DNA of 64,000 nt from Aphrocallistes beatrix (lineage: Eukaryota; Porifera; Hexactinellida; Sceptrulophora; Aphrocallistidae). Under the pieces are notes generated by a model. The model searched no databases, was not told where the DNA came from, and saw nothing but the letters and a program-made list of their open reading frames with translations. Both the position numbers and the translations under genes were made by a program. The stretch's first letter is position 1, and each line of letters begins with the position of its first letter. The DNA lies in NCBI GenBank assembly GCA_963281255.1, contig OY725491.1:682001-746000 (forward strand). The letters are read 5' to 3'. This document shows positions 27,311-54,942 of the stretch, in pieces.

Positions 27311-28124
27311 TGTTAAAGGTGTATATGAATTTTCGCAACCACACTTAATAATGAACCATTAGGCCAAGTGTGAGAATATACGTATATATATATGTGAGGA
27401 GTTCAACTGAATGTCTGATTTCAAATGGCTTCTCGACATAAGGAAACAGAACTCTGGGCTCTAGCAGCAACCGAAATGCCTGAATCGATAGGTGGCGTAG
27501 ATAAAAGAGTGAGAGTGGATCCCATGAATGTACCACCTTATAATTGGACCTGCTTTCTGTCAATCACAGCACATGATGGGAGCACGTGGAAGGGCAGTGG
27601 ATTTAAGATCTATTTGAAGGATGTAAACTACACGGCAGTTATCACATGTGGACATTGCACATTCGTCAAAGGTCAATTAGCTAAACAAATTTCAGTGACT
27701 TTTCCCGGTCAAAGTCCAGTCACAGTCGAAACAAAGGATTTGTACGCATCGCCAGAATACATTGATAAACGTAATCCTGACTATGATTACGGTCTGATTT
27801 TACTACCAGGGAATAGCGACGTTGGGTTCGGTTGGTCGGCTATAGTCCCAGATAATGAAATGGTTGACCGTAACGTGACTAGTTGTGGCTATCCTGGAGA
27901 TAAGTCCCCTGGTACTATTATAAACATTTTAAACTTCAATTTGTGTTTATTATATTCAGTGGAACTTGCCAATAACATGCGCCCAATTCTCAAGGGGCTA
28001 TGACACAACTATCATCAAAAAATGATGACTCATCACCCTGTTATGACGTCATCATTACGCATCATAATTTAAAAAATTGACAAATTTGGTGAATTTTCGA
28101 GCGATGTCGATTATAGCAGTAGGG

Positions 28125-28240
28125 CAGACATATTTAGAGATGTTATCTCCCTTAAAATTAATCAATGTGGCCCTAGGCGCCCAAAGGACGCCTAGGCTCA
28201 CATTGATTCATTACAAAGGAGATAACATCTCTAAATACGT
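28125..28240. repeat. Long hairpin with CCTAGGCG core
   Basis: The left arm runs from atatttagagatgttatctcc to cctaggcg and the right arm from cgcctagg to ggagataacatctctaaat. The arms are about 45-50 bp with few mismatches and a short loop. It is non-coding; the small ORF across it is incidental. Confidence 0.82.
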
Positions 28241-28757
28241 CTGTGTAAGAACAAAAAAGATGGCAATGACGTCATAATTCCATGATGAGTCGACATTTTG
28301 GTCTGAGGTCAGAACTTAGTGGAATTATTCGTTAACTTTTGTTTACAATATCTATATAAAGGAAAAATTTCCCAAAATAGGTTAGATTGAGTAACTACAG
28401 GCGCCCGCAGGGTGACTCTGCGGACACGCAGTGTTCGCAAGCCGCGCAGCGCAAGCAAGCGAAGCGCGCTTGTATATAAATATATATACATTAATTGAGT
28501 TTTAATAGTAAGGATTATTATTATTATTTATGTTTAGAAATACAATCAACATATTTACATTATTAAATTCAATTTGTGTTTATATATATTCAGTGGAACT
28601 AAAATGGCTGTTATAGTACAAAGGTAGCTGTCATTATATACATTTAGCATCATGTTGCCAGAGAACAGACATAACTAAGAGAATTAAAGTTATTTAATGA
28701 TAAATATAACCAAAACTTTAACAACTGTTATGAATAAGGAGGTATTTAAAATATTTT

Positions 28758-28925
28758 AGCGCATGCGCTAAAACACTAGTGTTTCATATATTTAAAATAT
28801 TTTAAATATATGAAACACTACAGTGTTTTAGCGCATGCGCTAAAATGAAAACAGCGCATGCGCTAAAATAAACAGCGCATGCGCTAAAGTAAAACAGCGC
28901 ATGCGCTAAAATATTTTAAATATAT
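28758..28925. repeat. Tandem and inverted array of gcgcatgcgctaaa
   Basis: Five copies of the self-complementary core TTTAGCGCATGCGCTAAA spaced by about 15-60 bp, with flanking arms atatttaaaatattt. Each core is itself a palindrome, so the whole block can fold in several ways. Confidence 0.85.
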
Positions 28926-29716
28926 GGAATAAGTAATTACAGCTTGAGGTATCAATTCTCAAATCAAGCACATAAATTGATCCGACAACAGATATGAAAC
29001 AGACGTGCTTAATGTAATAATTAACAAAAAGCGTGCTTCGCTTGCGCGGCTTTTGGACACTGCATGTCCACAGAGTCACTCTGCGGGCGCCTGGAGTTAC
29101 TCAATCTAACCTATTATGGGTGGATTGGGCTACTTAGGCGGCCCACCCTGCTCATTGACCCACCGGCCCATTAGGCATCTGCCTGGTGTCCTGATGGCAC
29201 AATCCGCTCCTGACCACCATACACCTAAGTATCTAATGAATGGTGTTTCACATCATTCTTACAGATACCACACTGTAAAAAATAAGTTCGAATTGAAGGT
29301 CACAAAGACTATTGCTAAAAATTATAGGTAACAAAACCTAAAATAGCTGATACATTTCGGACGATTTGAAGACAGACGACATAAATAGCCTATCAGTTCT
29401 GGTATGGATGGATCTCACTATAGAATGATCTCATGATCAAGTTTGTCGTTATCATCAGATATTCATTTTTGCACATTGATAAAGACAATTATTTTCTAAT
29501 TTAGTTATCTAAATTCCATTGTTGGAAGTACAAAGAAGTTTTATTAAGGTTAAATGAACTGAAGTTCATTTAACCTTATTCTTCATAATACTGGCAATTA
29601 ACCACACCATTTTTTTATTACATTTTTTATTACATGAATATTACATATATTACATATATATATTACTATATATATTATATTACATATATATATTATATTA
29701 ATATATATTATATTAC

Positions 29717-30388
29717 ATGAACGATACAATGAATGGTCAGAGTGGAAGTCCGGTTTACACATGGCATGAGGGATATTGGACGGTCGTGGGCATTCAGAGT
29801 CTTGCTGGATGTCCAAACTCAGCTGTTAGGTTGATTCCTGAAATGATCCTACGATTCTATGAACGAATGAATGCCCTCAAGCAAGTGACAATACGTTCCC
29901 ATGCATTCCCTGATGTGTTTATGCGTTGTGATGGTAGTGGGGTAGTCAAATATATGGGTAGTGGCGGTGGTATAGTTAACTGCCAATACAAACCAGCGAA
30001 AACCTATGAGGGGTATTATATATACCCGGTGGGGATGAACCCTTCACTAGCACCACCTGATAGGAAATACCCAGTCCACATACTGAGCGCTCGTTGGAAG
30101 AACGTGTATATACGGATGCAAGGTGGCAATATGAAAAAACCCCATGGTTCAGGTGGAGGTGTAGTTAATTGCCAACATGGTGCGTTCTCCTTGGAGGTAT
30201 TTTATCTCCGCGAAGAAGCAGAAGGAACTTCATCCTTCCAGAGTGTTCAGCATCCTCATTGCTTCCTTCGCCTAGATGGAACTGGTGTTACTAAACACAC
30301 TGGTCCTGGTGGTGGTGTGGTTAATTGGCAGTATTATGAAGACCCGGATGCTCCTGCTGTAGGGTATGAACGTTTCTGCATTGCTTAG
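29717..30388 (+). CDS. Family member 1, 3' half: SGSP motif plus three trefoil repeats
   Basis: A 223-codon open frame in phase with the paralogues. It starts at an ATG that corresponds to an internal Met-Asn-Asp in member 6. It retains GQSGSP, the end of the protease domain (GYWTVVGIQS, PEMILRFYERMN) and the three GGG(I/V)VN repeats; repeat 3 has NWQYY for the usual NCQYY. Whether it is translated alone is unknown. Confidence 0.6.
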   Translation: MNDTMNGQSGSPVYTWHEGYWTVVGIQSLAGCPNSAVRLIPEMILRFYERMNALKQVTIRSHAFPDVFMRCDGSGVVKYMGSGGGIVNCQYKPAKTYEGYYIYPVGMNPSLAPPDRKYPVHILSARWKNVYIRMQGGNMKKPHGSGGGVVNCQHGAFSLEVFYLREEAEGTSSFQSVQHPHCFLRLDGTGVTKHTGPGGGVVNWQYYEDPDAPAVGYERFCIA

Positions 30389-30725
30389 CTTCATGATAGC
30401 CATGTAACTAAGCTTGTAGTGTATTAGGGTGTGCGTGTTAGTTATTCTAGTTTCCTGCTGCTAGCATTATATTAGGTTTAGAGTACAAAGTAGGAGTGTA
30501 TGAGTGTCTTCAGAAAGACCTGCTCATAGTTTAGATAATATTGACTTTGCTGTTATTTTGCTGTTACTTATATTGTGTATTGCTTAGTTTCCTAGTACCA
30601 TTATTATTTTATGTTTAGTATTATAGAACTTGCGTGTCTACATTATTAAACTCGACTTGTGTTAATTATATTCAGTTGTACCTGCCAATAACGGGCGCTC
30701 AATTCTCAAGCTAGATCCACTATAC
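30389..30725. other. 3' flank of family member 1 (subfamily A type)
   Basis: It is similar to the 3' flank of member 2 (36675-36985): ttctagtttcctgctgctagcattatattagg and gtgttaattatattcag recur. It probably includes the 3' UTR. There is no canonical AATAAA within 150 bp that stands out. Confidence 0.5.
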
Positions 30726-31191
30726 TATATTCATACTTAAGTCATTTCATAAGTACTAAGCCGTGATCTGTATTCATAAGTTGGTGAAAATATAGTATTT
30801 TCGATTTGCCCATTGTATAGCTCAGGGGATCAGCTTTCGATTCGCTTATAGGATTGTTGTGATAGAACAATTATGGTGATTGGTACGTTCGACTTATATA
30901 CGTGGTTTAGGTGACTGTTGAAAAATTGGGATCTCCCCATTGAAAATGGCTTAAAAATGAATTTGGTTATATTTTTTTGAATTCGTGGAATAAGATCATT
31001 ACAAGGTCAAATAATTAAGAACATACATGTGATCAAGTAAACGGGAGGTGTTCAGTACAATAACCTGTGATAAAAAGTAATTATGCAACCTTACGTGGAT
31101 CTTTTCCCAATTTTTCTCCATAAAAATGCGACAAAAGTGGTAGTATGCCATTTCACAATTTATTCCCAAGCTTAAAACCGTAATACTACAA

Positions 31192-31735
31192 ATCTTATAT
31201 ATTAAAACTCCAAGATTTTTTTTTTTTTTTTTTTGTTTGTCCGAATTGATTGAAGAATTGGCAAGTCGTAGAGATACGAAATTTGGCATGTACGTGTCAA
31301 ATGATGAATCTAGGATTAAGTTCGAAGATCTAAGCGAAATGTTCACACTTCGCCGAGATAGGTGACAAAATGTGCTGACCAATCAAATTCGATTATTTTA
31401 TAATGTAAATACATTGGAATAAAATGGTACTGAACTATGCATACAATCAAAAGAAATATTTGTGATTGAAATTCATTGGTTTATGTGAACCAATCAATTA
31501 TCAGGATTTTATAATGTCATTCACACGATTCTATTTCATATAAATGATTGAATACTGCTATTTTAAGTCTATAATTTGATTGCTAACAACAATTAAAGCG
31601 TGTTATATGCTACGATCAATCAATTCGATCATAAAATAACTTTTAACGACATGGACTGGAATTGATTAATTAATTATAATAATCTTAAGCAATGTGAACT
31701 TTGTGTATTCAAATTTAGCTTACATTCAAGATAGT
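31192..31735. repeat. Direct repeat of about 420 bp, left copy
   Basis: The segment from about 31280 (gtgtcaaatgatgaatctagg) to 31735 is repeated in the same orientation at 33538-33960 with scattered differences. The left copy begins with tcttatatattaaaac and a poly-T run of 19. The two copies bracket both satellites. Confidence 0.85.
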
Positions 31736-31754
31736 TGTTTTTGAAATTATCAGA

Positions 31755-32545
31755 AAAACGTTTAAACATGTTTAAACATAAATTTAAACATGTTTAAACA
31801 TGTTTAAACATGTTTAAACGTAAAATTAAACATGTTTAAACATGTTTAAACACGTTTAAACATGTTTAAACATAAAATTAAACATGTTTAAACATGTTTA
31901 AACATAAATTTAAACATGTTTAAACATGTTTAAACATAAAATTAAACATGTTTAAACATGTTTAAACATGTTTAAACACGTTTAAACATGTTTAAACAAA
32001 TTTAAACATTTTTAAACATGTTTAAACATGTTTAAACACGTTTAAACATGTTTAAACATAAAATTAAACATTTTTAAACATGTTTAAACATGTTTAAACA
32101 CGTTTAAACATGTTTAAACATAAAATTAAACATGTTTAAACATGTTTAAACACGTTTAAACATGTTTAAACATGTTTAAACATAAAATTAAACATGTTTA
32201 AACATGTTTAAACATAAATTTAAACATGTTTAAACATAAATTTAAACACGTTTAAACATGTTTAAACATAAATTTAAACATGTTTAAACATGTTTAAACA
32301 TGTTTAAACACGTTTAAACATGTTTAAACATAAAATTAAACATGTTTAAACATGTTTAAACACGTTTAAACATGTTTAAACATGTTTAAACATAAAATTA
32401 AACATGTTTAAACATGTTTAAACATAAAATTAAACATGTTTAAACATGTTTAAACACGTTTAAACATGTTTAAACATAAATTTAAACATGTTTAAACATA
32501 AAATTAAACATGTTTAAACACGTTTAAACATGTTTAAACATAAAT
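31755..32545. repeat. 10 bp satellite tttaaacatg
   Basis: About 790 bp of nearly uninterrupted tttaaacatg, with variant units cataaaat and cacg spaced in a higher-order pattern. Each unit contains the palindrome GTTTAAAC and pairs form CATGTTTAAACATG, so either strand can fold on itself throughout. Confidence 0.97.
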
Positions 32546-33480: not shown

Positions 33481-33537
33481 TGAGAAATTATTCGCTTGTT
33501 TGCAATATTAAAGGTAAACAAATCCCAGAGATACAAA

Positions 33538-34585: not shown

Positions 34586-34940
34586 TTGGTATATAAGGTG
34601 TCAAATGATGTATCCATGGTTAGAAGTATCTCTCCACAAAAGCATGCGAAACTATCGTCAACGCTCTTGCAACATCTCGTCTTGACTATTGCAACTGTCT
34701 TGTTCTTCCTCGTTGCTCATGTCTCTACTCCAGCGTCTTCAAAACAAAACAGTGCAGCCAGGCATTATTCCATAATGCATCAAGAACCATTACATTATCT
34801 CCTCTTCTTAATATAATCCCTCCACTGGCTGTCTGTAAAACATCGCATCACTTTCAAAATCCTCATCATCTTCTTATATACATTGCACATACGCCAGAGA
34901 TTGTTTGAATATATAAAATTGTATACCTAATGAAGCCTGT
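34586..34940 (+). pseudogene. Degraded non-LTR retrotransposon (reverse transcriptase) fragment
   Basis: The bases share acaaaagcatgcgaaactatcgtcaacgct and following phrases with 38085-38300, where the frame encodes a recognisable LINE reverse-transcriptase tail. This copy is more broken. It precedes member 2 just as the other precedes member 3, so the fragment was probably carried along in the duplication. Confidence 0.72.
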
Positions 34941-35516: not shown

Positions 35517-36674
35517 ATGGCTTCTCCAGATTTAGAAACTGTACTCCCTGCTATAGCAGCAACTGAACTGCCTGAATCGATATGTGGCATAGATAATAGA
35601 GTGAGAGTGGATCCCATAACTTCACCACCCTACAGTTGGATCTGCTTTCTGTCAATCACAGCACATGATGGAACTAGATACAAGGGCAGTGGATTTAAGA
35701 TCCATTTGAAGGATGTCAACTACACGGCAGTTATGACCTGTGGACATTGCACATACGTCAAAGGCAAATTAGCTAAAAAAATTTCGGTGAATTTTCCTTG
35801 TCAAAGTCCAGTGACAGTTTACACAAAGGATTTGTACGCATCGCTTGAATATATAGGCCAAGGTGATCCTGACTATGATTACGGTCTGATTTTACTACCG
35901 GGGAATAGTGACTTTGGGTTCGGCTGGTCGGCTATAGTCCCTGATAATGAAATGGTTAACCGCATCGTGACCAATTGTGGATATCCTGCAGATAAGGACC
36001 GTGGTACTATGTGGATAACAGGCGGACCGGTTACTACAATGAATGGTCAGAGTGGAAGTCCTGTTTACACATGGTATGAGGGATATTGGACGGTCGTAGG
36101 CAATCACAGTTATGGTGGATGTCCTAACTCAGCTGTTAGGTTGATTCCTGAAATGATTCTACGATTCTATGAACGAATGAATGCCCTCAAGCAAGTGACA
36201 ATACGTTCCTATGCATTCCCTGATGTATATATGCGTTGTGATGGTAGTGGCGGTGGTACAGTTAATGCCCAATACAAACCACCGAAAACCTATGAAAGGT
36301 ATCACATATACCCAGTGGGGATGAACCCTTCACTAGCACCACCAGATAGGAAATACCCAGTCCACATACTGAGTGCTCGTTGGAAGAATGTATATATAAG
36401 GATGGATGGCAGAAATATGTCAAAATTTCTAGGTCCAGGTGGAGGTGTGGTTAATTGTCAATTTGGCGCGCGTAATTATGAGGTATTTTATCTCAAGGGA
36501 GAAGCAGAAGGAACTTTCTCCTTCCAGAGTGTTCAGTTTCCTCATTGCTTCCTTCGTCTAGATGGAACTGGTGTTACTAAACAAACTCGTCATGGTGGTG
36601 GTGTGGTTAATTGCCAGTATTATGAATTCCCTGATGCTCCTGTTAAACCACATGGACGTTTCTACATTGCTTAG
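35517..36674 (+). CDS. Family member 2: predicted active protease-trefoil protein
   Basis: A 385-residue intronless ORF with no signal peptide or membrane segment; the N-terminus is polar and acidic, so it is probably cytosolic. Residues about 28-225 are a chymotrypsin/V8-type domain with His77 (TCGH), Asp121 (DYDYG) and Ser179 (GQSGSP). Residues about 226-385 hold three repeats with the cores DGSGGGTVNAQY, GGGVVNCQF and GGGVVNCQY, each followed by an aromatic-rich strand (YExFYL type), resembling a beta-trefoil of the fascin class. In repeat 1 the loop between DGS and GGG is deleted and Cys is replaced by Ala. The protease assignment comes from motifs. The substrate is unknown. Confidence 0.9.
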   Translation: MASPDLETVLPAIAATELPESICGIDNRVRVDPITSPPYSWICFLSITAHDGTRYKGSGFKIHLKDVNYTAVMTCGHCTYVKGKLAKKISVNFPCQSPVTVYTKDLYASLEYIGQGDPDYDYGLILLPGNSDFGFGWSAIVPDNEMVNRIVTNCGYPADKDRGTMWITGGPVTTMNGQSGSPVYTWYEGYWTVVGNHSYGGCPNSAVRLIPEMILRFYERMNALKQVTIRSYAFPDVYMRCDGSGGGTVNAQYKPPKTYERYHIYPVGMNPSLAPPDRKYPVHILSARWKNVYIRMDGRNMSKFLGPGGGVVNCQFGARNYEVFYLKGEAEGTFSFQSVQFPHCFLRLDGTGVTKQTRHGGGVVNCQYYEFPDAPVKPHGRFYIA

Positions 36675-37194: not shown

Positions 37195-37486
37195 TTATAA
37201 AGAATAACTAATAATAGAATAGAATAGAATAAGAAAAAATATTCGATGACATGTAGGACATGATTGTCCTAGGACCTGAATTTTTTGGCTACATTCTGGA
37301 CAACAATTAGCATGCCTGAATGGTAAAAAAATCCATGTAGCATTACGAGATTCAAGACATACGACACACTTAGTTTCTTCAACGGGTGTGTTAGTAACCT
37401 CTTCGTCAGAATCTTCAGAATCGCTTGAGGGAACATTGACCTCCGTGTTTATCCTGCCAATTGTATGGCTGATAGCTTTAAGATAC
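37195..37486 (-). pseudogene. RING-type zinc-finger ORF fragment inside the TIR element
   Basis: The minus frame from about 37486 down to the stop near 37195 is open for about 95 codons but has no Met. It encodes an acidic serine-rich linker (SSDSEDSDEEV), then CVVCLESR, LPFRHANCCPEC and SCPTCHR. The spacing matches a C3HC4 RING of the IAP/MDM2-like type, except that the third zinc ligand is Phe (LPFRH for LPCxH). It may be a 3' exon captured by the element. The function would be ubiquitin ligase if expressed; this is unproven. Confidence 0.6.
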
Positions 37487-37799: not shown

Positions 37800-38341
37800 G
37801 AAATCTACCCCCCCTGCCATAATCCAAACTCCGTTCTTGAACTCTTAACGATGCTGCTCATCAATGACTCCTAAACTGAGTTCCTTGTAATTGATACTCG
37901 TCAACAACTCTCCAAGGTCCACATTGATAACATCTCTGTTGGCAGTTCTCTAATCTCGCCATCCAAAGAAGTGGGAACTTGGGTGCCTGGTTGGACAACA
38001 ACCTATCATTGTATACTCAGATCCGTAAAGTTGCTTCTTCTTGTTTCTACTTCATCTATAGTATCCGTCGAATCAGGAAATATCTCTCCACAAAAGCATG
38101 CGAAACTATCGTCAACGCTCTTGTAACATCTCATCTTGACTATTGTAACTGTCTTGTTCTTCCTCGTTGCTCATGTCTCTACTCCAGCGTGTTCAAGGCA
38201 AAACAGTACAACCAGGCATTATTCACAAATGTATCAAGAAACATTCCATCGTCTCCTCTTCTTAATATAATCTCTCCACTGACTGTCTGTAAAACATCGC
38301 ATCACTTACAAAATCTTCCTCGTAACTTATATAGTTTCTAA
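37800..38341 (+). pseudogene. Non-LTR retrotransposon reverse transcriptase fragment
   Basis: The open frame 37979-38341 reads GAWLDNNLSL, IRRIRKYLSTKACETIVNAL and HLDYCNCLV, the conserved C-terminal (thumb) part of LINE reverse transcriptases (CR1/L2-like group). A frame break just upstream separates it from a segment encoding LLVIDTRQQLSKVHIDNISV-like residues of the same domain. It is truncated at both ends and inactive. Confidence 0.85.
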
Positions 38342-38585: not shown

Positions 38586-39761
38586 ATGGCATCCAAACTG
38601 CCTGAGAAAATATCTGACATAGACACTCGAGTGAGAGTGTATCCAATGACTTCACCACCTTACAGTTGGATCTGTTTCTTGTCAATCACAGCACAAGATG
38701 GGATTAGGTACAGAGGCACTGGGTTTAAGATCCATTTGAAGGATGTTAACTACACGGCAGTCCTCACCTGTGGACATTGCACTTTCGTCAAAGGCAAACC
38801 AGCTAAACAAATTTCAGTGACTTTTCCTGACCAAAGTCCAGTCACAGTTTACACAGAGGATCTGTACACATCGCCTGAATACATCAACAAAGGTAATCCT
38901 AACTATGACTACGGCCTGATTTTACTTCCAGGGAATAGCGATAGCGGTTTTGGTTGGTCGGCTATTGTCCCTGATAAAGAATTACATAAAAGTGTGACGA
39001 AATGTGGCTATCCTGCAGATAAGCCACGTGGCACTATGTGGATAACAGGTGGACCAGTTGATGAGTGTACATACAGACGTATTTTCTACATGAACGGTAG
39101 ACGTAGTCAGAGTGGAAGTCCGGTTTACACGTGGTATGAGGGATATTGGACGGTAGTAGGCATTCAGAGTCTTGGTGGGTGTCCTAACTCAGCAGTTAGG
39201 TTGATTCCTGAAATGATTCCACGATTCTATGAACGAATGAATGGCCTCAAGCAAGTGACAATACGTTCCTTTGCATTTCCTGATGTATATATGCGTTGTG
39301 ATGGCAGTAAGATGGTGACATATACGAGAAGTGGAGGTGGTACAGTTAACTGCCAATACAAACCAGCGGGGACCTATGAGGGGTATTATTTATACCCAGT
39401 GGGAATGAAATCCTCTCTAGCACCACCTGATAGTAAATACCCAGTCACTATACTGAGCGCTTGTTTCAAGAATGTGTATATACGCATGGATGGCAGTAAG
39501 ATGACAAAATACAAAGGTCAAGGTGGAGGAGGTGTGGTTAATTGTCAATATGATGCGTTTACTTATGAGTCATTTTATCTTCGGAATGAAGAAGATGGAA
39601 CTGTCTCCTTCCAGAGTGTTCAGTTTCCTCATTGCTTCCTCAGCCTAGATGGAACTGATGTTACTAAACACACTGATGCAGGTGGAGGTGTGGTCAATTG
39701 TCAGTATTATGATAACCCTGATGCTCCTGCTGCGTTGTGTGAACGTTTTCGTATTACTTAG
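38586..39761 (+). CDS. Family member 3: predicted active protease-trefoil protein
   Basis: 391 residues, intronless, no signal peptide. The protease domain (about 14-225) has His64 (TCGH), Asp108 (YDYG) and Ser176 (SQSGSP). An insertion between the Asp and Ser motifs (DECTYRRIFYMNGRR) restores the loop missing in member 2. The three trefoil repeats have cores DGSKMVTY...GGGTVNCQY, DGSKMTKY...GGGVVNCQY and DGTDVTKH...GGGVVNCQYY. The N-terminal leader is about 14 residues shorter than in members 2 and 6. Gene order, promoter and upstream LINE fragment match member 2, indicating a duplication of the whole unit. Function is unknown; a cytosolic protease with a ligand-binding trefoil is my inference. 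Confidence 0.9.
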   Translation: MASKLPEKISDIDTRVRVYPMTSPPYSWICFLSITAQDGIRYRGTGFKIHLKDVNYTAVLTCGHCTFVKGKPAKQISVTFPDQSPVTVYTEDLYTSPEYINKGNPNYDYGLILLPGNSDSGFGWSAIVPDKELHKSVTKCGYPADKPRGTMWITGGPVDECTYRRIFYMNGRRSQSGSPVYTWYEGYWTVVGIQSLGGCPNSAVRLIPEMIPRFYERMNGLKQVTIRSFAFPDVYMRCDGSKMVTYTRSGGGTVNCQYKPAGTYEGYYLYPVGMKSSLAPPDSKYPVTILSACFKNVYIRMDGSKMTKYKGQGGGGVVNCQYDAFTYESFYLRNEEDGTVSFQSVQFPHCFLSLDGTDVTKHTDAGGGVVNCQYYDNPDAPAALCERFRIT

Positions 39762-41111: not shown

Positions 41112-42284
41112 ATGGCCTCGAAAGAAAGGAAGACAGAAGACAGAGTCAAATTTGACCCCAAGACTTCACCGCCGAACAGTTGGATCTGTTACTTGTTCAT
41201 GCTAACGCATGATCTTAAGCCTTTCATTTGCAATGGATTCAAGATTCATTTAAAGGATGTCAACCGCACTCTAGTTATCACCAGTGGACAGGCTCTATAC
41301 CAGCGAGGTCATATGGTAAAAAATGCTACAGTGTTTGTTCCTGGGAAAGCTACAGTCACAGTTGAAACATCGGATATGTATGTAGCTCCAGAATATATTC
41401 AAGACGGAAATCCTGACTATGACTATGGAATGCTTTCACTACCAGGGACAAGTGACGAAGGATTCGGTTGGTCGGCTATCCTCTCTGATGATGAATTAAA
41501 TAACCGCATCGTGAACAAATGTAGTTATCTCGAAGTAAATGATACCATGGGGATAACAGGTGGTCCGATTACCAAATATACAGACAAACGCATTTTCTAC
41601 AGGAAAGATGCAACGATCGATCTGATTGGAAGTCCTATTTACACATGGGATGACGGAAATTGGACGGTAATTGGGATCAATACTGGTGCAATTCACGCCC
41701 AGTGTATAAACTATGGTGTTAGGCTAATTCCTGAAATGTTTCGACGATTCTTTCGTCAAATGCCTTTCAGAGCAGAGCTGACACTACGTTCTCATGAATT
41801 CCCTGATGTATACATGCGTTGTGATGGTAACAAAGTGATAGAACCAGTGCCAACTGGAGGTGGTATAGTTAATTGCCAATTCAAACCAGCGGAATCCTAT
41901 GAGCGGTATCATATATACCCAGTTGAGATGAAACCCTCACTAGCACGTCTTGTAAAGTACTTAGTTCACATAGAGAGCACTCGTTGGGACAATGTGTTTA
42001 TACGAATGAATGGCAGTGGGATGTCTGCACCTTCGCCTGTTGGTGGAGGCATCGTCAATTGTCACTATGGTGCGCAATCCTATGAGAAATTCTATCTCCG
42101 AAGAGAAGAAGGAACAACTCTCTCCTTTCAGAGTTTTGAGTTTCCACATTGCAAACTCCGCCTAGCTGGGAATGATGTCATTGAGCATACTCCTACTGGT
42201 GGGGGGAAGGTTAATTGCCAGTATTATTACGATACAGAAGGACTTGCTGGAGCTCTTGAACGCTTCTACATGGAGTCTGTTTAG
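41112..42284 (+). CDS. Family member 4: pseudoprotease-trefoil protein (His and Ser lost)
   Basis: 390 residues, fully open, intronless, no signal peptide. The fold-defining segments of the family are present (NSWICYLFM, GFKIHLKDVN, DYDYGMLSLPG, GSPIYTWDDG), but the His position reads TSGQ (Gln60) and the nucleophile position reads DLIGSP (Ile172); only Asp104 of the triad remains. It should therefore be catalytically dead. The trefoil is intact with three GGG(I/K)VNC cores (residues about 230-390), so the protein may act by binding. The frame is undamaged despite the loss of two catalytic residues, arguing for selection on a non-enzymatic role. A frameshifted inverted copy is at 44231-45405. 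Confidence 0.9.
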   Translation: MASKERKTEDRVKFDPKTSPPNSWICYLFMLTHDLKPFICNGFKIHLKDVNRTLVITSGQALYQRGHMVKNATVFVPGKATVTVETSDMYVAPEYIQDGNPDYDYGMLSLPGTSDEGFGWSAILSDDELNNRIVNKCSYLEVNDTMGITGGPITKYTDKRIFYRKDATIDLIGSPIYTWDDGNWTVIGINTGAIHAQCINYGVRLIPEMFRRFFRQMPFRAELTLRSHEFPDVYMRCDGNKVIEPVPTGGGIVNCQFKPAESYERYHIYPVEMKPSLARLVKYLVHIESTRWDNVFIRMNGSGMSAPSPVGGGIVNCHYGAQSYEKFYLRREEGTTLSFQSFEFPHCKLRLAGNDVIEHTPTGGGKVNCQYYYDTEGLAGALERFYMESV

Positions 42285-42879: not shown

Positions 42880-43160
42880 GTACATTCCTCAAATGTTTAT
42901 TTGAGCTTGGTCATACCTGGTATGTTGGTGGCTTATCTAAAGTAACAATAAACTCCTTTAAACTTGAATAGACAACCCACTTTGGAATTTGGTGGTCATT
43001 CGGAATGTATGTCCTATGCCTTCACTTGAAGAAGAATGGACATTTTTGACCATAGATGGACTTTTTTGAAGCACAAATTTTGAGGTACGTGTAGCATACC
43101 AGAATTGAAGACAAACTACTACGTAGTAACTTTGAATTCCTACAAACTCATAAACAATGG
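42880..43160 (+). repeat. 280 bp upstream module, copy 2
   Basis: The same module as 40330-40620, lying directly before the relic at 43160. Confidence 0.85.
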
Positions 43161-43440
43161 TGAACTACTTGAGACGATATGTGGTAGAAGGGATAAAGGT
43201 GTCAGAATAGATTCGGTGAATTCGCCATCTCACATTTGGATCTGCCTCTTATCAATCATTTCACATGATAGGATAACCAGCCAGAACACTGGGTTTAAAA
43301 TTCATTTAAAAGATATATCTCAGCTAAACCTTAGTTATAACATGTGGCCATCCCACTTACGTTAAAGGTGAACATTTAGGACAAATATTCAAAATTTCAA
43401 TCGACAGACAGACATTTTTTAATAATTATCCACAAACCAA
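43160..43440 (+). pseudogene. Relic of the protease-trefoil family, N-terminal part
   Basis: The frame reads ETICGRRDKGVRIDSVNSP, HIWICLLSI and TGFKIHLKD, the first 70 residues of the family, then breaks before the CGH motif (acatgtggccatcccacttacgttaaagg). The remainder of the gene is absent. Confidence 0.85.
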
Positions 43441-44230: not shown

Positions 44231-45405
44231 CTAAACAGACTCCATGTAGAAGCGTTCAAGATCTCCAGCAAGTTGTTCTGTATCATGATAATACTGGCAA
44301 TTAACCTTCCCTCCACCATTAGGAGTATGTTCAATGACATCAGTCCCATCTAGGCGGAGTTTGCAATGTGGAAACTCAAAACTCTGAAAGGAGAGAGTTG
44401 TTCCTTCTTCTCTTCGGAGATAGAATTTCTCATAGGGACCTGCACAATGTTGACAATTAACGATGCCTCCACCAGTTAGTGAGGGTGCTGACATCCCACT
44501 GGCATCCATTCGTATATACACATTGTCCCAATGAGTGCTCTCTATGTGAACTAAGTACTTTTCAAAACGTTCAAGTGAAGGTTTCATCCTTACTGGGTAT
44601 ATATGATACCGCTCATAAACTTGAGCTGGTTTGAATTGGCAGTTAACTGTGCCGCCTCCACTTGGCGTACATTCTGTCACCCCACTAGCTTCACAACGCA
44701 TGTATACATCAGGGAATTCTTGAGAACGTAGTGTCAGCTCTGCTCTGAAAGGCATTTGACGAAAGAATCGTCGAAACATTTCAGGAATTAGCCTAACACC
44801 ATAGTTTAGACACTCGGTGTGAGTTGCACCAGTATTGATACCAATTACCGTCCAATTTCCGTCATCCCATGTGTAAATAGGACTTCCAATCAGATCGATC
44901 GTTGCATCTTTCCTGTAGAAAATGCGTTTGTCTGTATACTTGGTAATCGGACCACCTGTTTTATCCCCATGGTATCATTTACTTCGAGATAACTACATTT
45001 GTTCACGATGCGGTTATTTAATTCAGCATCAGAGAGGATAGCCGACCAACCGAACCCTTCGTCACTCGTCCCTGGTAGTGAAAGCATTCCATAGTCATAG
45101 TCAGAATCTCCGTCTTGAATATATTCGGGGGCTACATACATATCCGATGTTTCAACTGTGACTGTAGCTTTCCCGGGAACAAACACTGTAGCATTTTTTA
45201 CCATATGACCTCGCTGGTATAGAGCCTGTCCACTGGTGATAACTAGAGTGCGGTTGACATCCTTTAAATGAATCTTGAATCCATTGCAAATGAAAGGCTT
45301 AAGATCATGCGTTAGCATGAACAAGTAACAGATCCAACTGTTCGGCGGTGAAGTCTTGGGGTCAAATTTGACTCTGTCTTCTGTCTTCCTTTCTTTCGAG
45401 GCCAT
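44231..45405 (-). pseudogene. Family member 5: inverted, frameshifted copy of member 4
   Basis: The start codon is at 45405. Two extra bases at about 44959-44962 (cctgttttatcc against cctgttatcc in member 4) break the frame after about 147 codons; beyond that the original frame is open to the stop at 44231. The dead-protease changes (Gln for His, Ile for Ser) are the same as in member 4, so they predate the duplication. Residues 1-147 differ from member 4 at only three positions, whereas the trefoil half (about 163 residues) differs at about 33. The upstream Met at 45495 is in the same frame but not conserved. Confidence 0.88.
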
Positions 45406-46310: not shown

Positions 46311-46439
46311 AACTGAATGCAGGTAACCCGCTTAATCGGGACACTGTGTTCCGATATTGTTTCCAGATTAACCTGAGTTCCGAATTAACCGATGCCTTCT
46401 TCACAGAGACAATGTCCACAGGTGTTACCTACCATTCAG

Positions 46440-46650
46440 CTGACTTATTTCAAACGAATCTTGAATCCACTGCTCTAGATTTTATTCCTTTCTTGCGATG
46501 CATTTAACACAAAACAGATCCAATTGTACGACGGTGACTTGGGGCCAACTCTCACCCTCTCATCTTTCCGCCTATTTCCTCATCCGGTTGGGAATATTCT
46601 ATGTCTGAAAGTTCTGTTTCCGTATCTTGAGAACCATTTGAAATCACAGA
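46440..46650 (-). pseudogene. Relic of the family, N-terminal part
   Basis: The minus strand starts with gtgatttcaaatgg at about 46645, then encodes residues like SQDTETELSDIEYSQPDEE, followed by damaged versions of the SPPYNWICF and SGFKIRLK segments. Stops and indels are present. The same N-terminus is found in the relic at 48375. Confidence 0.8.
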
Positions 46651-49648: not shown

Positions 49649-49860
49649 CATACTTGCCAACTGTCCCGTTTTTGGCGGGATGTCCCGCTTTTTTCACTCT
49701 TCTATTGAGCTAATTTTCGCGAGTGTCCCGCTTTTACATGAAATTTCCCAATTATGTCCCGCTTTTTTCTACTCATGTATAATACTTTTCTATTGCGTCC
49801 CGCCACGTCCCGCGAAATTTAACGCTGCGGCCCGTTTTTATCATGACTCAGGTTGGCATG
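49649..49860. mobile_element. Dispersed CATACTTGCCAAC...GGTTGGCATG repeat, copy 4
   Basis: The same orientation as copy 3, with more than 80 percent visible identity to it. It is non-coding. Confidence 0.78.
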
Positions 49861-50690
49861 TATGTGTTAGCCTCTTTCTTGTTTAGGCCTCCACTTTTGC
49901 TATGGGACACGTTAACTGTGTTTACTTAATTGATGACAGTAGTAGTCCTTATATGTATTAGAATTTGTCATTAGAAGCAATGGTTCGAAATCTAATAGAA
50001 ATTTTCACATCTTTTCTATACATTTTACTGTAGTATAAGTTATTATTATCATAATAGCAGATCATTTACGACACGAGATGTATTAATGGCAACGCTGTTG
50101 AATAGAAAACTATTCTGACGGGAAATTATTTACAATTTTTGTATTGTTTAGTTGGATATACAAGCATGCAAGAAATCCACTACTCAGTTACTGTAAACAG
50201 CCAAGTATTTATATATATTGGTATTTTGTTATTTTTCCTAAGAAAATTCTTTTTATTTTAATTCCTATTAATAGTAAATGCTTTATGAAATGCACGCCAG
50301 TTCATTCCTGGAAAATCTATTGACCCAAATTATAGTAATTTGTACCATTTTACCATATTATTATTCCTTTGTGATGGAGATTATGCACTCATTTGTTTAA
50401 CTAACAAGAAGTTTGAAAATTCATTCAAAATATATTGTGAAAATATTATATACATTTTGTCTGCTCACAAAAATTAAACCTATAACTAGACCTGTGAAAT
50501 TCTACAAAAATATCGATATCGCTTCGAATTTCTATAAAAATTAATTATTGTCTATCTAAATTGAAATTATAAAACCAAAAATGTAACGAGTTCAAAAATG
50601 ACCCATAAGATTTGATACATCAAATTTCTCTATAGGGACATAGAAAAGTGTATAGTTTACATCAATACTTTGTAGCGAATAAATATATAG
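49861..50690. other. 5' intergenic region of member 6
   Basis: The first part is unique. From about 50410 it becomes homologous to the 5' flank of members 4 and 5 (cattcaaaatatattg, tattgtc...aaccaaaaatgtaacgagttcaaaaat). Confidence 0.6.
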
Positions 50691-50729
50691 TTTCCTGTCT
50701 GGCAATATACATAGCATCTACTTCCAGGG

Positions 50730-50794
50730 TAAAAATATATTATTTTACTGCATTTCAAGATACGTCTAGCTTAACTGAGTGTCTGTGATTTCAA
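50730..50794 (+). promoter_or_regulatory. Conserved core promoter of family member 6
   Basis: TAAAAATATATTATTTTACTG starts 65 bp before the ATG, and agtgtctgtgatttcaa immediately precedes it. Confidence 0.62.
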
Positions 50795-52018
50795 ATGGCC
50801 TCTAAAGAAACGGAAACAGAACTCCCAGGTATAGAAGATTCCAAACTGCCTGGGGTAATATGTGGTAAGGATGAGAGAGTGAAAGTTGTTCCCAATACTT
50901 CACCACCGTACAGTTGGATCTGTTTCGTGTTTGTTGTAACGCATGGTGGTATGCGTAACATTGCCAGTGGATTCAAGATCCATTTAAAGGATTGTAACCA
51001 CACGGTAGTTCTCACATGTGGACATATCCTTTATACTAGAGGCGAGATGGTAAGCCAAGTTTCACTGATATTTCCTGGTCAAGAAGCAGTCACAGTTTAC
51101 ACAGATAGTTTGTACGTACCCCCCGAATACATTCGCAGCAGAAATTCTGACTATGACTATGGGGTTATTTTACTACCAGGGACGAGTGACGAAGGGTTCG
51201 GTTGGTCGGCTATCCTCTATGATGCTGAATTAACTGACCTCATCGTGAACAATTGCGGTTATAGTGATAAGCCAGTGGGTCACTTGTGGATAACAGGTGG
51301 TCCGATTACCAAGTATACAGACAGAGGCATTTACTACATGAACGATACAACGATCGGTACGAGTGGAAGTCCTGTTTACACATGGGATGACGGATATTGG
51401 ACGGTAATTGGTATTCATTCTGGTGCAACTGAACTCATGTGTCCTAACCATGGTGTTAGGCTAATTCCTGAAATGATTCAACGATTCTATTTTCGTATGA
51501 AACTGATGAAAGCTGTGACGATACGTTTTCAAGCATACCCTGAGGTATATATGCGTTGTGATGGTGAAGACGTGAAAAAATCACCAAGTGGAGGTGGTAC
51601 AGTTAATTGCCAATACCCCCCAGTGGAACCTGATGAGTGGTTTTACATATACCCAGTGAAGATGAAACCCTCACTAGCACCTGATGGCAAATACGTAGTC
51701 CACTTAGAGAGCGCTAGTTGGAACAATGTGTTTATACGAATGAATGGCAGTGGGATGTCATCATCCTCACCTAGTGGTGGAGGCCAGGTCAATTGTCAAT
51801 ATGGTGCGTTTTCCTACGAGAGATTCTATCTCCGAAAAGAAGAAGGAGGAACTTTCTCCTTTCAGAGTTTCAAGTTTCCACATTGCTTCCTCCGCCTAGC
51901 TGGGGCTGATGTCACTGAACATAAGGAAAAAGGTGGGGGAAAGGTTAATTGCCAGTATCAGAACGATCCAGATCAACCTGCTGGATCTCTTCAACGCTTC
52001 TACGTGAAGAAAATGTAG
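50795..52018 (+). CDS. Family member 6: predicted active protease-trefoil protein
   Basis: 407 residues, the longest member; intronless, no signal peptide. The protease domain (about 28-240) has His77 (TCGH), Asp121 (DYDYG) and Ser190 (GTSGSP). Between the Asp and Ser motifs lies the full loop WITGGPITKYTDRGIYYMND. The trefoil repeats are at about 247-407, with cores DGEDVKKSPSGGGTVNCQY, GSGMSSSSPSGGGQVNCQY and DVTEHKEKGGGKVNCQY. The last two repeats are almost identical to those of member 7, although the protease domains of 6 and 7 have diverged strongly. This is the only subfamily B member with a complete triad, so it is the best candidate for the ancestral active form of that subfamily. 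Confidence 0.92.
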   Translation: MASKETETELPGIEDSKLPGVICGKDERVKVVPNTSPPYSWICFVFVVTHGGMRNIASGFKIHLKDCNHTVVLTCGHILYTRGEMVSQVSLIFPGQEAVTVYTDSLYVPPEYIRSRNSDYDYGVILLPGTSDEGFGWSAILYDAELTDLIVNNCGYSDKPVGHLWITGGPITKYTDRGIYYMNDTTIGTSGSPVYTWDDGYWTVIGIHSGATELMCPNHGVRLIPEMIQRFYFRMKLMKAVTIRFQAYPEVYMRCDGEDVKKSPSGGGTVNCQYPPVEPDEWFYIYPVKMKPSLAPDGKYVVHLESASWNNVFIRMNGSGMSSSSPSGGGQVNCQYGAFSYERFYLRKEEGGTFSFQSFKFPHCFLRLAGADVTEHKEKGGGKVNCQYQNDPDQPAGSLQRFYVKKM

Positions 52019-52260
52019 TTTCCTGATAGCAATGTCATTAGGTTTAGTCGTGTGTTAGAGTGTGCTTGTCTTAGAATATCTTAAGTATTATTTAGAGAGT
52101 ATTGTCTGTTGCTATTGACATTGCTTAGATCCCTGCTGAGAGTATCATTAGTATGCTAGTAGTGTAATAGTAGGTATATTCCCAGATATAGTAGTATATC
52201 AATTAAACTTACTTGTAGATCTATGCTCAAGTTTTCATTTTTACATAATTCAATAATTCA
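52019..52260 (+). other. 3' flank of member 6 (subfamily B type)
   Basis: The same block as after members 4, 5 and 7, with ATTAAA (caattaaactta) near 52202 as a possible polyadenylation signal. Confidence 0.6.
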
Positions 52261-52554
52261 CTAATTCACTAAATGAATAATAAGGAGTTATAGAGTAGGA
52301 ATAGAAAAGTTACAGCAAAATAGGGGTAAATCGCTAAAGTTCAACAAGATGTTGAATTAAGTCGTCATTGAATTATTTGATTGGTTTGACAGACCCGCAA
52401 CAAAGATTTTCTTCCCGCAAAGCCCCGAGGCCGAAAATTAAACTCGGCCTCCGCATACAATTCTGGGAAAAGTTTGTAAATATCGGTCGGGCGACAGACC
52501 GATTTTTTAACAATTATAAGTACAGACCATATGTATTGCAAGAACGATAGAGTG

Positions 52555-52680
52555 GGCATTCAAAGAACTCAGTTTACACATGGGATGAGGGTATTGGATA
52601 GTGCTAGGCATTTACAGTTATAAATCCGCTGTAAGGCTGAATTCTACAATGAATGTAGAAAGAACATATGAAAGTCCTTA
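52555..52680 (+). pseudogene. Relic of the family, Ser-proximal region
   Basis: gtttacacatgggatgagggtattggatagtgctaggcatttacagttataaatccgctgt matches the region after the catalytic Ser and is nearly the same as in the relics at 40125 and 46225. No frame survives. Confidence 0.8.
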
Positions 52681-52689
52681 AAGGACAAT

Positions 52690-52970
52690 ATATTCATATA
52701 CGTACATTCCTCAAATGTTTATGAGCTTAGTCATATCTGGCATTTTAGTGGCTTATCTAAAGTAGCATCAAGCTCCAGTAAAACATAAATAGACAACCCA
52801 CTTTGGAATTTGGTGGTCATTCGGAATGTATGTTCTACGCCTTCACTTGAAGAAGAATGGACATTTTGACCATAGATGGACTTTTTTGAAGCACGTGTAG
52901 CATACCAGAATAGAAGACAAACTACTACGCAGTAACTTTGAATTCCTACAAACTCATAAACAATGGTCTC
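52690..52970 (+). repeat. 280 bp upstream module, copy 5
   Basis: It matches the modules at 40330, 42880 and 48690 and directly follows the relic at 52555, the same order as at 40125-40620. Confidence 0.87.
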
Positions 52971-53392
52971 GGCTAAAATGGGAAATGTATTTAAAGGTTC
53001 TATTCTCAAACTCATTGTCTGTGATTTCAAGTGGCTTAACAAAATAAATAATATTTTGATTATTGTAGATACTTTTGCTGGCAAAAGGCAGAGCACTAAC
53101 TTGTCTCATCTGTTGAATTTCACTGACGAAAACATTTATTTTAGAACTATTTTAGAACATTTATTAAATTTTGTAGTCCACAACCAAAAACCCCTAAAAT
53201 CCGGGGCTTTAGTGGAAGAATACAAATTTTACAAATGATTTTTCGAAAAGTGGATTTTGCAATTTTCAAAATCCACTATCTTAAGCGAAATTTAACCTTT
53301 TATTTAAATATAAACATAAAGTAAGCAATTTCAAAAAAAGTGATTCGATACGCCAACCCTTTGTAGCGAATAACTATAAGTTGCCCGTACTA

Positions 53393-53608
53393 TAGGCGCC
53401 AAACCCGAGGGGGATAAAGGGGCTCAAAACCCCCTGGATTCGAAGATAGCCGATAGACGCAATGCAAAATTTAGAGCTGAGCCCACCCCAGAACCCCCAA
53501 ATTGTCCAAGGATTTCGAAAAGTTCGGTCCCTGGTCCGTACAGCATAATATATACTTAAGCAAAATTTAACCTTTTTATAATATACGTATATATATATAT
53601 ATATATAG
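53393..53608. repeat. ataggcgccaaa repeat and AT microsatellite
   Basis: 53393-53530 shares its start with about 24545 and is locally GC-rich (gggggataaaggggctcaaaaccccc is a short hairpin). It is followed by an (AT)n run at 53581-53607, just upstream of the member 7 promoter. Confidence 0.55.
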
Positions 53609-53670
53609 CCATCTTTCGTAGCGAATAACTATGAGTTGTCCGTACGACTTAATGGATACCTCCACCAGAG

Positions 53671-53736
53671 TATAAATCCATTATTTTTACTGAATTCCAA
53701 GTTATCTCTAGTTCAACCGAGTGTCTGTGGTTTCAA
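53671..53736 (+). promoter_or_regulatory. Core promoter of family member 7 with canonical TATA box
   Basis: TATAAATC begins 66 bp before the ATG, followed by cattatttttactgaattccaagttat and cgagtgtctgtggtttcaa. This is the clearest TATA box in the family and supports the reading of TTAAAA at the same position in the others as its degenerate form. Confidence 0.68.
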
Positions 53737-54942
53737 ATGGCTGCTCATGATGCAGAAACAGAAGATGTAGCGTATGATATAATATGTGGTGAAGATACCA
53801 GAGTGAAAGTGAATCCCAACACTTCACCTCCGTACAACTGGATCTGTTTCCTGGAAATTACAACACAAGATGATACTATAGTCAAAGGCAGTGGATTCAA
53901 GATTCATCTGAAGGAGGTTGGCTACACGGTAGTCATCACAACTGCACATCTCCTTTTCAGGAAATTGGAGGGCTGGGCTAAACAAGTTTCGGTACTCTGT
54001 CCTGGTCAAAGTTCAGTCACAGTTGAAACAGAGAATTTGTACGTACCTCCAGAATATATCGACAACGAAGATGCTAATTATGACTACGGAATGATTCTGT
54101 TACCAGGGACGAGTGACAACGGATTCGGTTGGTCGACTATCATCCCTGAAAAAAAACTTCCTAAACGAATCGTGACTACATGTGGGTATCCCACAGATAA
54201 ACCACGTGCTACTATGTGGATAACAGGTGGTAAGGTTACCACTTATACAGGCAGACTTATTTCTTACCTGAAAAATCCAGCGAAGCGTCTGGATGGAAGT
54301 CCTGTTTACACATGGTATGAGGGATATTGGACAGTTTTGGGCATTCATCGTCTCTCTGGGTGTCCTAACTCAGCTGTCAAGTTCATATCTGAAATGATTC
54401 TACGATTTTATGAGCGAATGAATGCCCTCAAAAAAGTGACAATACGCTCCCAAGCATATCCGAATGTATATATGCGTTGTGATGGTAGTGAGGTGAGAAA
54501 ATCATCGCCAAGTGGAGGCGGTACAGTTAACTGCCAATACAAACCAGCAGAAGCCAATGAGTGGTTTTATATATACATAGTAGGGATGAAACCCTCACTA
54601 GCACCTGATGGCAAATACCCAGTTCATATACTGAGTGCTCATTGGAACAATGTGTATATACGAATGGTTGGTAGTGGGATGTCAGCAGCCTTACCTAGTG
54701 GTGGAGGTATCGTTAATTGTCAATATGGTGCGTTTTCCTACGAGAGATTCTATCTCCGAAAAGAAGAAGGAGGAACTTTCTCCTTTCAGAGTCTTCAGAC
54801 TCCACATTGCTTTCTTCGCCTAGCTGGGGCTAGTGTCACTGAACATAAGGAAAAAGGTGGGGGAAAGGTTAATTGCCAGTATCAAGACGATCCAGATCAA
54901 CCTGCTGGAGCACTTCAACGCTTCTACATGGAGTCTGTTTAG
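53737..54942 (+). CDS. Family member 7: pseudoprotease-trefoil protein (Ser replaced by Asp)
   Basis: 401 residues, open, intronless, no signal peptide. His71 (TTAH) and Asp116 (YDYG) remain, but the nucleophile position reads RLDGSP, with Asp186 in place of Ser; it should be inactive as a serine protease. The preceding loop (TGRLISYLKNPAKR) also differs from all other members. The three trefoil repeats are intact (about 233-401), and the second and third match member 6 almost residue for residue. The loss of catalysis is independent of that in member 4, because a different residue is substituted. It is the last member before the USP19-like gene. Confidence 0.9.
   Translation: MAAHDAETEDVAYDIICGEDTRVKVNPNTSPPYNWICFLEITTQDDTIVKGSGFKIHLKEVGYTVVITTAHLLFRKLEGWAKQVSVLCPGQSSVTVETENLYVPPEYIDNEDANYDYGMILLPGTSDNGFGWSTIIPEKKLPKRIVTTCGYPTDKPRATMWITGGKVTTYTGRLISYLKNPAKRLDGSPVYTWYEGYWTVLGIHRLSGCPNSAVKFISEMILRFYERMNALKKVTIRSQAYPNVYMRCDGSEVRKSSPSGGGTVNCQYKPAEANEWFYIYIVGMKPSLAPDGKYPVHILSAHWNNVYIRMVGSGMSAALPSGGGIVNCQYGAFSYERFYLRKEEGGTFSFQSLQTPHCFLRLAGASVTEHKEKGGGKVNCQYQDDPDQPAGALQRFYMESV

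Follow-up and report, generated by a model that had tools for sequence, protein, structure and literature searches.

A tandem array of genes that encode a V8-type protease domain fused to a probable beta-trefoil occupies positions 27425-54942 of the 64,000-nucleotide stretch of Aphrocallistes beatrix DNA analysed here (the window). All its members belong to one family: five genes are intact single ORFs, two copies are split and two more are fragments. The N-terminal half of the proteins is a homologue of the V8/BIGEP-type glutamyl endopeptidases. According to the reading we prefer, to which we give somewhat less than an even chance, the array encodes leaderless, self-activating, Glu-specific proteases that carry a lectin-like trefoil, exist as active, S1-altered and dead paralogues and serve intracellular defence. 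New observations are the association of a glutamate at position -1 with an intact catalytic triad, myristoylation-like motifs in six relatives and the constraint on a pair of dead copies.

The gene array and its genomic setting

All seven loci of the original prediction were recovered by the ORF list and the genome search as five intact ORFs and two split copies, and the genome search added two fragments to this list. When the protein encoded at 50795 was compared with the 100.5 Mb genome, at least 11 matches were obtained and every one of them lay within the 27425-54942 cluster. COX1 of this genome is 95% identical to that of A. vastus, a value that falls to 92% when AGA is translated as Ser, and places the DNA close to Aphrocallistes. 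Three intact copies on the plus strand retain the His-Asp-Ser triad. The copy at 35517..36674 (385 amino acids) also retains Thr190, His213, Gly216 and Glu(-1), and it has short deletions in trefoil repeat 1 and ahead of the catalytic serine. The copy at 38586..39761 (plus strand, 391 amino acids) keeps Glu(-1), and its S1 pocket is altered (Thr190 to Arg, His213 to Gln). The copy at 50795..52018 (plus strand, 407 amino acids) keeps Thr190 and His213, and it has Ala at aligned position 216, Gly at -1 and Val1. Two further intact plus-strand ORFs are predicted to be catalytically dead: in 41112..42284 (390 amino acids), which has a short N-terminus without the activation segment, His57 is replaced by Gln and Ser195 by Ile, and in 53737..54942 (401 amino acids) Ser195 is replaced by Asp.

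The split plus-strand copy consists of an N-terminal protease half (27425..28003), which breaks off after ...GDKSPGT, and a C-terminal half with SGSP and trefoil (29717..30388). Some 1.7 kb of repeat-rich DNA separates the two. The former matches P0010, a longer protein on a contig of another assembly, at 98% over 102 amino acids and the latter at 77%, so that they are perhaps not halves of one original gene. In the split minus-strand copy (45405-44231) the frame is broken between an N-terminal part (44890..45405) and a C-terminal part (44231..44974), and the latter is predicted to be dead (Ser195 to Ile). This copy has an uninterrupted counterpart, P0003, which the C-terminal part matches at 98%. 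Copy integrity differs between assemblies. The fragments, both from the N-terminal region, lie at 43153..43323 (plus strand; 36% over query residues 14-69) and at 46394..46567 (minus strand; degenerate, with three stops). Thus, ORFs and residue comparison bear out the predicted tandem expansion with active-looking and dead copies. An NCBIfam search gave nothing useful. Contamination or a bacterial contig was considered and rejected because the array lies inside a 6.1 Mb contig and is flanked by RhoGEF and ubiquitin-hydrolase genes.

The genes had been described as intronless and free of a signal peptide, and the sequence fits both statements. Directly before the ATG there is no AG acceptor in any of seven copies (CAAATGGC in six of them, TAAATGGC in 38586), and thus there is no sign of an upstream coding exon spliced to that point. 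An upstream signal-peptide exon was considered, as an apparent 'FQM' resembled an acceptor, but the DNA reads CAAATG (TAAATG in one copy) and not CAGATG. Intronless genes are unremarkable in this group, as judged from a table for A. vastus in which 12,409 transcripts have a single exon and the genes number 19,578 (PMC10282587, in excerpt). In a simple hydropathy test only one of 89 family members exceeded the threshold for a signal peptide, and the leaderless proteins are presumably cytosolic. An N-myristoylation-like MGxxxS motif forms the first residues of five of 126 proteins and follows an internal Met in one more; no window copy starts in this way.

The protease half and its putative activation site

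Profile comparison confirmed the predicted N-terminal V8-type domain (1p3c, E 5.1e-15 over profile positions 41-241; V8, E 2.8e-11). The CGH/DYDYG/SGSP set named for it is not complete in all copies, being broken in 41112 (H to Q, S to I), 53737 (S to D) and the minus-strand copy (S to I). The triad is complete in 75 of the 89 family members and in three of the five intact window ORFs. Among the 75 triad-intact members, 61 have the V8/BIGEP-type S1 set of Thr/Ser190, His213 and Gly216; within the window this set is complete only in 35517, with S-G-A after His213 in 50795 and Arg190/Gln213 in 38586. The S1 set has been linked to a specificity for Glu, in which the free N-terminus compensates the charge (PMC5508998, in excerpt), and we infer Glu-specific cleavage for the array family. 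LmuA from PADLOC was weakly matched by four of five proteins (E 1e-6 to 1e-4), with the outlying fusion P0119 unmatched; the shared trypsin-like fold alone may account for these matches.

In the profile alignment, the motif VCGKDER aligns from residue 2 of the 1p3c chain onward, which makes the preceding Ser/Thr position 1 and the Glu before it position -1. This glutamate, just before the equivalent of the mature N-terminus, is conserved in 59 of 89 members, with 12 gapped rows scored as 'not Glu'. It is found in 56 of the 75 triad-intact members but in only three of the 14 triad-broken ones (Fisher p 2.5e-4, shared ancestry being ignored). An enzyme with Glu at the -1 site, and mutants, have been described to autoactivate (PMC5508998, in excerpt). 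Two observations count against the zymogen reading. The best-preserved window copy, 50795, has Gly rather than Glu at -1. Moreover, of 56 rows having Glu(-1), 47 carry Ser or Thr at position 1, and exchange of Val1 for Ser in V8 led to a loss of about 200-fold (PMC5508998, in excerpt).

The dN/dS ratios of seven copy comparisons were 0.32-0.60 in six cases and 1.00 in the seventh, and thus positive selection is not shown. For the catalytically dead pair of 41112 and the minus-strand copy a value of 0.48 (0.31-0.77) was obtained, which places their coding sequences under purifying selection. Comparison of 50795 with 41112 gave 1.0, a value compatible with relaxed constraint after loss of activity.

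The C-terminal repeats and the distribution of the fusion

The C-terminal half had been described as a fascin-like trefoil with three repeats. The threefold repeat was recovered: when repeats were aligned with each other, three window copies scored 64-125 (shuffled means 21-24, maximum 40) and seven of seven proteins scored 49-144 (shuffled maximum 43). The fascin assignment was not borne out by sequence, as Pfam Fascin PF06268 was matched neither in nine window pieces at E<=1 nor in 11 trefoil segments at E<=0.1. Fascin-family matches occur elsewhere in the A. beatrix genome. By sequence, the trefoil appears nearest to AbfB, and its [WY]ExF repeat ends point to the lectin trefoils of CBM92 and Hydra PPOD and not to fascin. 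Pfam AbfB was above the cut-off in the Nocardia (E 6.9e-6) and Saccharothrix members and below it in the window proteins (E 0.04-0.12); it was the Pfam model for six of the 11 trefoil segments, and RicinB_lectin_2 matched one (E 9e-5). In the PDB profile search, 3kmv was matched with a whole-sequence E of 0.0017 (single stretches 0.12-0.17), and 3pg0 'ThreeFoil', a designed trefoil, with E 0.0035 with a Nannocystis member. No chain named CBM92 was among the PDB matches at E<=10 in the copy searched, which may lack CBM92 entries. A comparison of the trefoil alignments A4 and A7 gave a probability of 100% and was discounted because A4 itself includes bacterial members.

Three ExF motifs were detectable in 70 proteins, the other 19 of the 89 members being outside these counts. 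An aromatic residue precedes ExF in 57, 63 and 55 of them at repeats 1-3, respectively. This residue is Trp in 31, 23 and 28 proteins and often Tyr instead; 13 proteins have Trp at all three sites and 26 at none, and the five intact window copies lack Trp at every ExF site.

The family is wider than A. beatrix, since the taxonomic search named two corals and one demosponge as hosts of relatives. No relative was found among viral contigs or phages, and a viral or phage origin was rejected. The fusion and its domain order had been put forward as novel. No description of it was found in the literature searched, but the protease half matches the characterised glutamyl endopeptidases. The A. vastus paper (PMC10282587) does not use 'serine protease' and has 'trypsin' once, for an inhibitor domain; the Oopsacas paper yielded nothing for five terms. 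A profile search found the V8 domain in none of 45 bacterial trefoil loci, whose ORF starts were set mechanically, which shortened L054 to 53 and L057 to 15 amino acids. In bacteria, this kind of trefoil occurs in fusions with four other types of peptidase, and phmmer linked the 50795 protein to the Nocardia protein P0112 with E 5e-24.

Possible function and comparison with known systems

Under our preferred reading of a self-activating protease aimed by its trefoil, the ancestral enzyme would be made as a zymogen that begins with a short peptide (M...SLPE). Cleavage after the conserved Glu would release residue 1, the amino group of which would complete the S1 pocket in the manner of V8/BIGEP. 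Each active molecule could thereby activate the next. The trefoil would direct the protease to a ligand via three repeated sites, and the aromatic residue of each site would be the counterpart of the Trp by which CBM92 binds glucan. Paralogues that are dead but kept the trefoil may compete with or regulate active ones. The family may have a recognition or effector role, and the most likely use would be intracellular defence against microbes or microbial products, for which the weak LmuA matches provide a parallel. To our knowledge, few animal proteases of the trypsin fold have been described that are cytosolic and contain a recognition domain of their own. If the zymogen reading is true, sponges and corals have a proteolytic switch that amplifies itself and differs from caspases. 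The array offers a compact, testable set of natural variants, some active-looking, some S1-altered and some dead, from a lineage about whose immunity little is known.

A more far-reaching proposal, which we regard as distinctly unlikely, is that the family represents an undescribed class of animal intracellular defence proteins, in which bacterial-type modules combine a ligand- or glycan-sensing lectin trefoil with a self-activating Glu-protease zymogen. Proximity on the ligand would set off trans-cleavage at LPE|S and then a proteolytic cascade, altered-S1 paralogues would broaden the targets and dead paralogues would act as decoys or brakes. Such a system would be a sponge and coral functional counterpart of bacterial protease effectors.

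Sponges are filter feeders, and the proteins might instead be extracellular or phagosomal digestive or mucus enzymes with non-classical release, the trefoil anchoring the enzyme to polysaccharide of food or symbionts like the CBMs of secreted bacterial enzymes. Secretion has been described for V8-like glutamyl endopeptidases, for many CBM92 proteins and for Hydra PPOD (PMC5508998, PMC11039641, PMC3531485, all in excerpt). However, a leader is absent by hydropathy in 88 of 89 members, six relatives have myristoylation-like motifs, and the window proteins, with 9-13 Cys each, lack the leader expected of a disulphide-bonded secreted protein; we consider this explanation unlikely. Rather unlikely, too, is a regulator that acts on proteins of the host itself, for instance in glycan-modified or cytoskeletal processes, and that multiplied by ordinary tandem duplication and has no immune role. 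Tandem arrays can arise neutrally, and tandem duplicates are abundant in corals (PMC10236652, in excerpt). The dN/dS ratios, which fall short of positive selection, also favour such a regulator. On the other hand, active sites were lost and changed within one small array and copy integrity varies between assemblies, which is more usual for conflict genes. The split copies, the fragments, the two intact ORFs with dead triads and the ratio of 1.0 for 50795 and 41112 might also mark a decaying family, with one or two working genes, a trail of pseudogenes and no system-level meaning. We consider this very unlikely; five full-length ORFs are intact, the dead pair is constrained and the minus-strand copy has P0003 as an uninterrupted counterpart.

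With V8/BIGEP (1p3c, 1qy6) the array family shares the catalytic triad, the S1 residues Thr/Ser190, His213 and Gly216 and the location of the mature N-terminus. Bacteria are described to make V8, BIGEP and Esp with a signal peptide and a propeptide (PMC5508998, in excerpt), whereas the array family is leaderless in the simple test and has a short N-terminal segment instead of the long propeptide, plus the C-terminal trefoil. The hosts of the fusion are animals wherever named, the outlying fusions P0105 and P0119 being outside that statement. LmuA of Lamassu, presumably a bacterial anti-phage effector, resembles the protease half by a weak profile match; we know of no LmuA-trefoil fusion. In actinobacterial proteins (Nocardia, Saccharothrix, Allorhizocola) a homologous trefoil is likewise joined to a protease, but this protease is papain-like (Peptidase_C70) and the trefoil is N-terminal. 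AbfB (CBM42) provides the best PDB profile match of the array trefoil, but the hhalign probability was just 14-53% and the GGGxVNCQ signature is absent from AbfB. Fascin shares the general fold class, provided that the trefoil assignment is right. CBM92 ('bacterial fascin-like') proteins and Hydra PPOD also have three repeats that end in aromatic-E-x-F, and PPOD is a bacterial-type lectin trefoil present in an animal (PMC11039641, PMC3531485, in excerpt). However, the repeat spacing is 51-64 in the array family and 42 between the three Trp residues of CpCBM92A, and the partner of CBM92 is a glycoside hydrolase, whereas that of the array trefoil is a peptidase with no leader seen.

The array and its neighbouring elements

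Between positions 27425 and 54942 we found nine places occupied by the family, in which an N-terminal half of the V8/BIGEP glutamyl endopeptidase type precedes a C-terminal, probably trefoil half: five intact ORFs, two split copies and two fragments (43153-43323, plus strand; 46394-46567, minus strand). The intact ORFs (plus strand; cited by their starts) are 35517-36674, 38586-39761, 41112-42284, 50795-52018 and 53737-54942, which encode proteins of 385, 391, 390, 407 and 401 amino acids, respectively, with a mean column identity of 73%. The split copies are located at 27425-28003/29717-30388 (plus strand) and 45405-44231 (minus strand, the minus copy). When the 407-aa 50795 protein was searched against the whole genome (100.5 Mb, 28 contigs), at least 11 matches were obtained, all inside this cluster. 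The window corresponds to C4:682001-746000 of that genome. The ORFs and this search bear out the seven loci of the original prediction.

A RING-finger ORF (37195-37485, minus strand; PF13920, E 3.5e-9) sits between two array members. Two similar ORF fragments (34624-34908 and 37931-38341, plus strand) lie upstream of 35517 and 38586, respectively. We take these fragments to resemble reverse transcriptase element remnants, and such remnants may have driven duplication; the longer one (37931-38341), the only fragment scanned, had no Pfam match. Within the plus-strand split copy, the segment 28371-29120 has the look of a small mobile element of the inverted-repeat kind: its inverted arms measure 90 nt, are 86% complementary and are separated by 570 nt, and repeated AGCGCATGCGCT palindromes lie between them. 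Directly before the C-terminal half of this copy there is an inverted 30-nt piece of the gene 3' end (29580-29609 vs 30313-30342, 97% complementary), a sign of local rearrangement. At locus L069 (G000:C3:2066286-2066501), another single ORF codes for a trypsin-like protein (263 aa) that looks leaderless and contains GSSGSP, and a nearby ORF presumably resembles a von Willebrand A domain. The COX1 encoded by the 17,996-base contig C28 was closest, among named records, to that of Aphrocallistes vastus (95%), with other glass sponges next, which points to a hexactinellid near Aphrocallistes. In the 4.3 kb of C28 read, A exceeded T, C exceeded G, ATA codons were numerous and cox1 lacked TGG, traits that PMC2267718 reports for glass sponges; in our translation AGA codons fell at serine positions.

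Protease half, putative activation site and probable cellular location

A profile of 89 aligned relatives, which include the five window copies, found its PDB matches among glutamyl endopeptidases (1p3c, E 5.1e-15; V8, E 2.8e-11). Pfam Trypsin_2 was detected at E≤0.01 in 68 of the 89 members, and in two of the nine window pieces, each time under the Pfam cut-off. The catalytic triad was intact in 75 of 89 rows, 61 of which carried the S1 set Thr/Ser190, His213 and Gly216, and His213 co-occurred with the triad (69/75 triad-intact vs 5/14 triad-broken rows). In the window, 35517, 38586 and 50795 kept the triad; the S1 pocket of 38586 is altered (Arg190/Gln213) and 50795 has Ala at position 216. 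Judged by sequence, 41112 and 53737 are catalytically dead, as is the minus copy (Ser to Ile), and thus active-looking and dead copies stand side by side, as had been predicted.

For V8 and BIGEP, PMC5508998 describes an S1 pocket that is completed by the amino group of residue 1 of the mature chain; processing must therefore come first, and Glu at the cleavage site allows an enzyme to activate itself. In the profile alignment the 1p3c chain start falls on the family motif LPE|[ST][VI]CG. Glu occupied position -1 in 59 of 89 rows, namely in 56/75 triad-intact vs 3/14 triad-broken rows (p 2.5e-4, relatedness ignored; 12 gapped rows scored as not Glu). However, two findings speak against self-activation: Gly occupies position -1 of 50795, and 47 of the 56 triad-intact Glu(-1) rows carry Ser or Thr as residue 1, a poor choice at this place in V8 (PMC5508998). 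Four of the 126 proteins among the matches listed, truncated family members apart, were shorter, glutamyl-endopeptidase-like and trefoil-free (P0114, P0115, P0124, P0125). Their N-termini had no obvious leader; three share the start ET[VI]CG with the sponge family and P0124 has ETVCR instead. A search with P0124 matched 28 plasmid records, each below 60% identity.

Only one of the 89 members had a hydrophobic N-terminus above our own hydropathy threshold, which is consistent with the predicted lack of a signal peptide. MGxxxS, taken by us as an N-myristoylation-like motif, was present at the start of 5 of the 126 proteins among the matches listed and at an internal Met in one more; the window copies lacked such a start. 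Because of these N-termini and the motifs in relatives, the family proteins are likely cytosolic.

The putative trefoil half

The three repeats are spaced 51-64 residues apart and scored far over shuffles in all seven proteins tested. The 50795 protein found a Nocardia protein (P0112, E 5e-24), and a contig scan seeded with its trefoil and relatives yielded 45 bacterial loci, 34 of them assigned to Actinomycetota from organism names. For the fascin-like reading of the original prediction, Pfam Fascin gave no match. The Nocardia trefoil segment exceeded the Pfam AbfB cut-off, and trefoil profiles matched AbfB structures at whole-sequence E 0.0013-0.0017, with single stretches reaching just 0.12-0.17. 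AbfB was detected at E≤0.01 in 6 of 89 members, and at no better than 0.04-0.12 in the window copies; comparison with true AbfB domains was weak (probability 53% and 14%). The sole Pfam model over cut-off in window copies was FIBL-2 ('Fibulin-2 domain'; two of nine pieces; 24/89 members at E≤0.01); this 30-residue model falls on the repeats, and we gave it no weight as a functional clue.

Repeat ends tend to [WYF]ExF. In the 70 of 89 proteins in which three motifs were found, an aromatic residue stood there in 57, 63 and 55 cases (repeats 1-3) and Trp in 31, 23 and 28; 26 proteins had Trp at none of the sites and 13 at all three. CBM92 binds glucan through WExF (PMC11039641), and the same motif has been proposed as the glycan site in Hydra PPOD, a protein of presumed bacterial origin (PMC3531485). 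However, the CBM92 repeat spacing differs and the PDB profile matches included no chain with the name CBM92. For these reasons the predicted trefoil is called CBM92/PPOD-like here rather than CBM92.

Spread, evolution and proposed role

Two protein searches gave 116 matches and the best 120 of 124 matches. The matches listed included fusion members assigned by name to Oculina patagonica, Paramuricea clavata and Halichondria panicea; several further contigs, recognised by identical lengths (e.g. 187477, 1815220, 314313), were judged to carry at least two members each. An 89-row tree was built after dropping three rows of the alignment and adding three others; its bootstrap had not settled. In this tree a single clade (100/99) united the five window copies with three proteins from an 834,935-base contig, which places the origin of the array within the sponge's lineage. 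This contig carries near-identical proteins, among them a counterpart of the minus copy in which the frame is uninterrupted, and joins the 27425 half to a different partner; copy integrity seems to vary among assemblies or haplotypes. For the dead pair 41112/minus copy a dN/dS of 0.48 (0.31-0.77) was determined, indicating that constraint persisted after activity loss. For 50795 vs 41112 the value was 1.00 (0.75-1.36; protease 0.89, trefoil 1.14), indicating a fast route to the dead clade. The remaining five comparisons gave 0.32-0.60, and none of these comparisons demonstrates positive selection.

In the scheme we favour, inferred from the cleavage step onward, a leaderless Glu-specific protease would be made as a zymogen, the lectin-like trefoil would aim it, and dead copies might regulate the active ones or compete with them. 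Among possible uses we rank defence first, since trypsin-like proteins serve as effectors in bacterial conflict systems (PMC8195603), the Lamassu effector LmuA (PADLOC) weakly matched the protease half in four of five proteins, and the array displays birth, death and S1 change of copies.

In nine bacterial proteins scanned, the same kind of trefoil was joined to Peptidase_C70 in three and to C1 (papain; L047), S8 (subtilisin; L043) and M57 (L045) peptidases in one each; three had no peptidase. Because it pairs repeatedly with unrelated peptidase types, the module may have a general function in aiming or sensing, and a broader census of such proteins might define a general peptidase-aiming domain. 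The original prediction that no described family has this fusion agrees with the accessible portions of the literature searched, which yielded no published description of the fusion in animals. The separate parts belong to known kinds, and what appears new is their fusion in animals.
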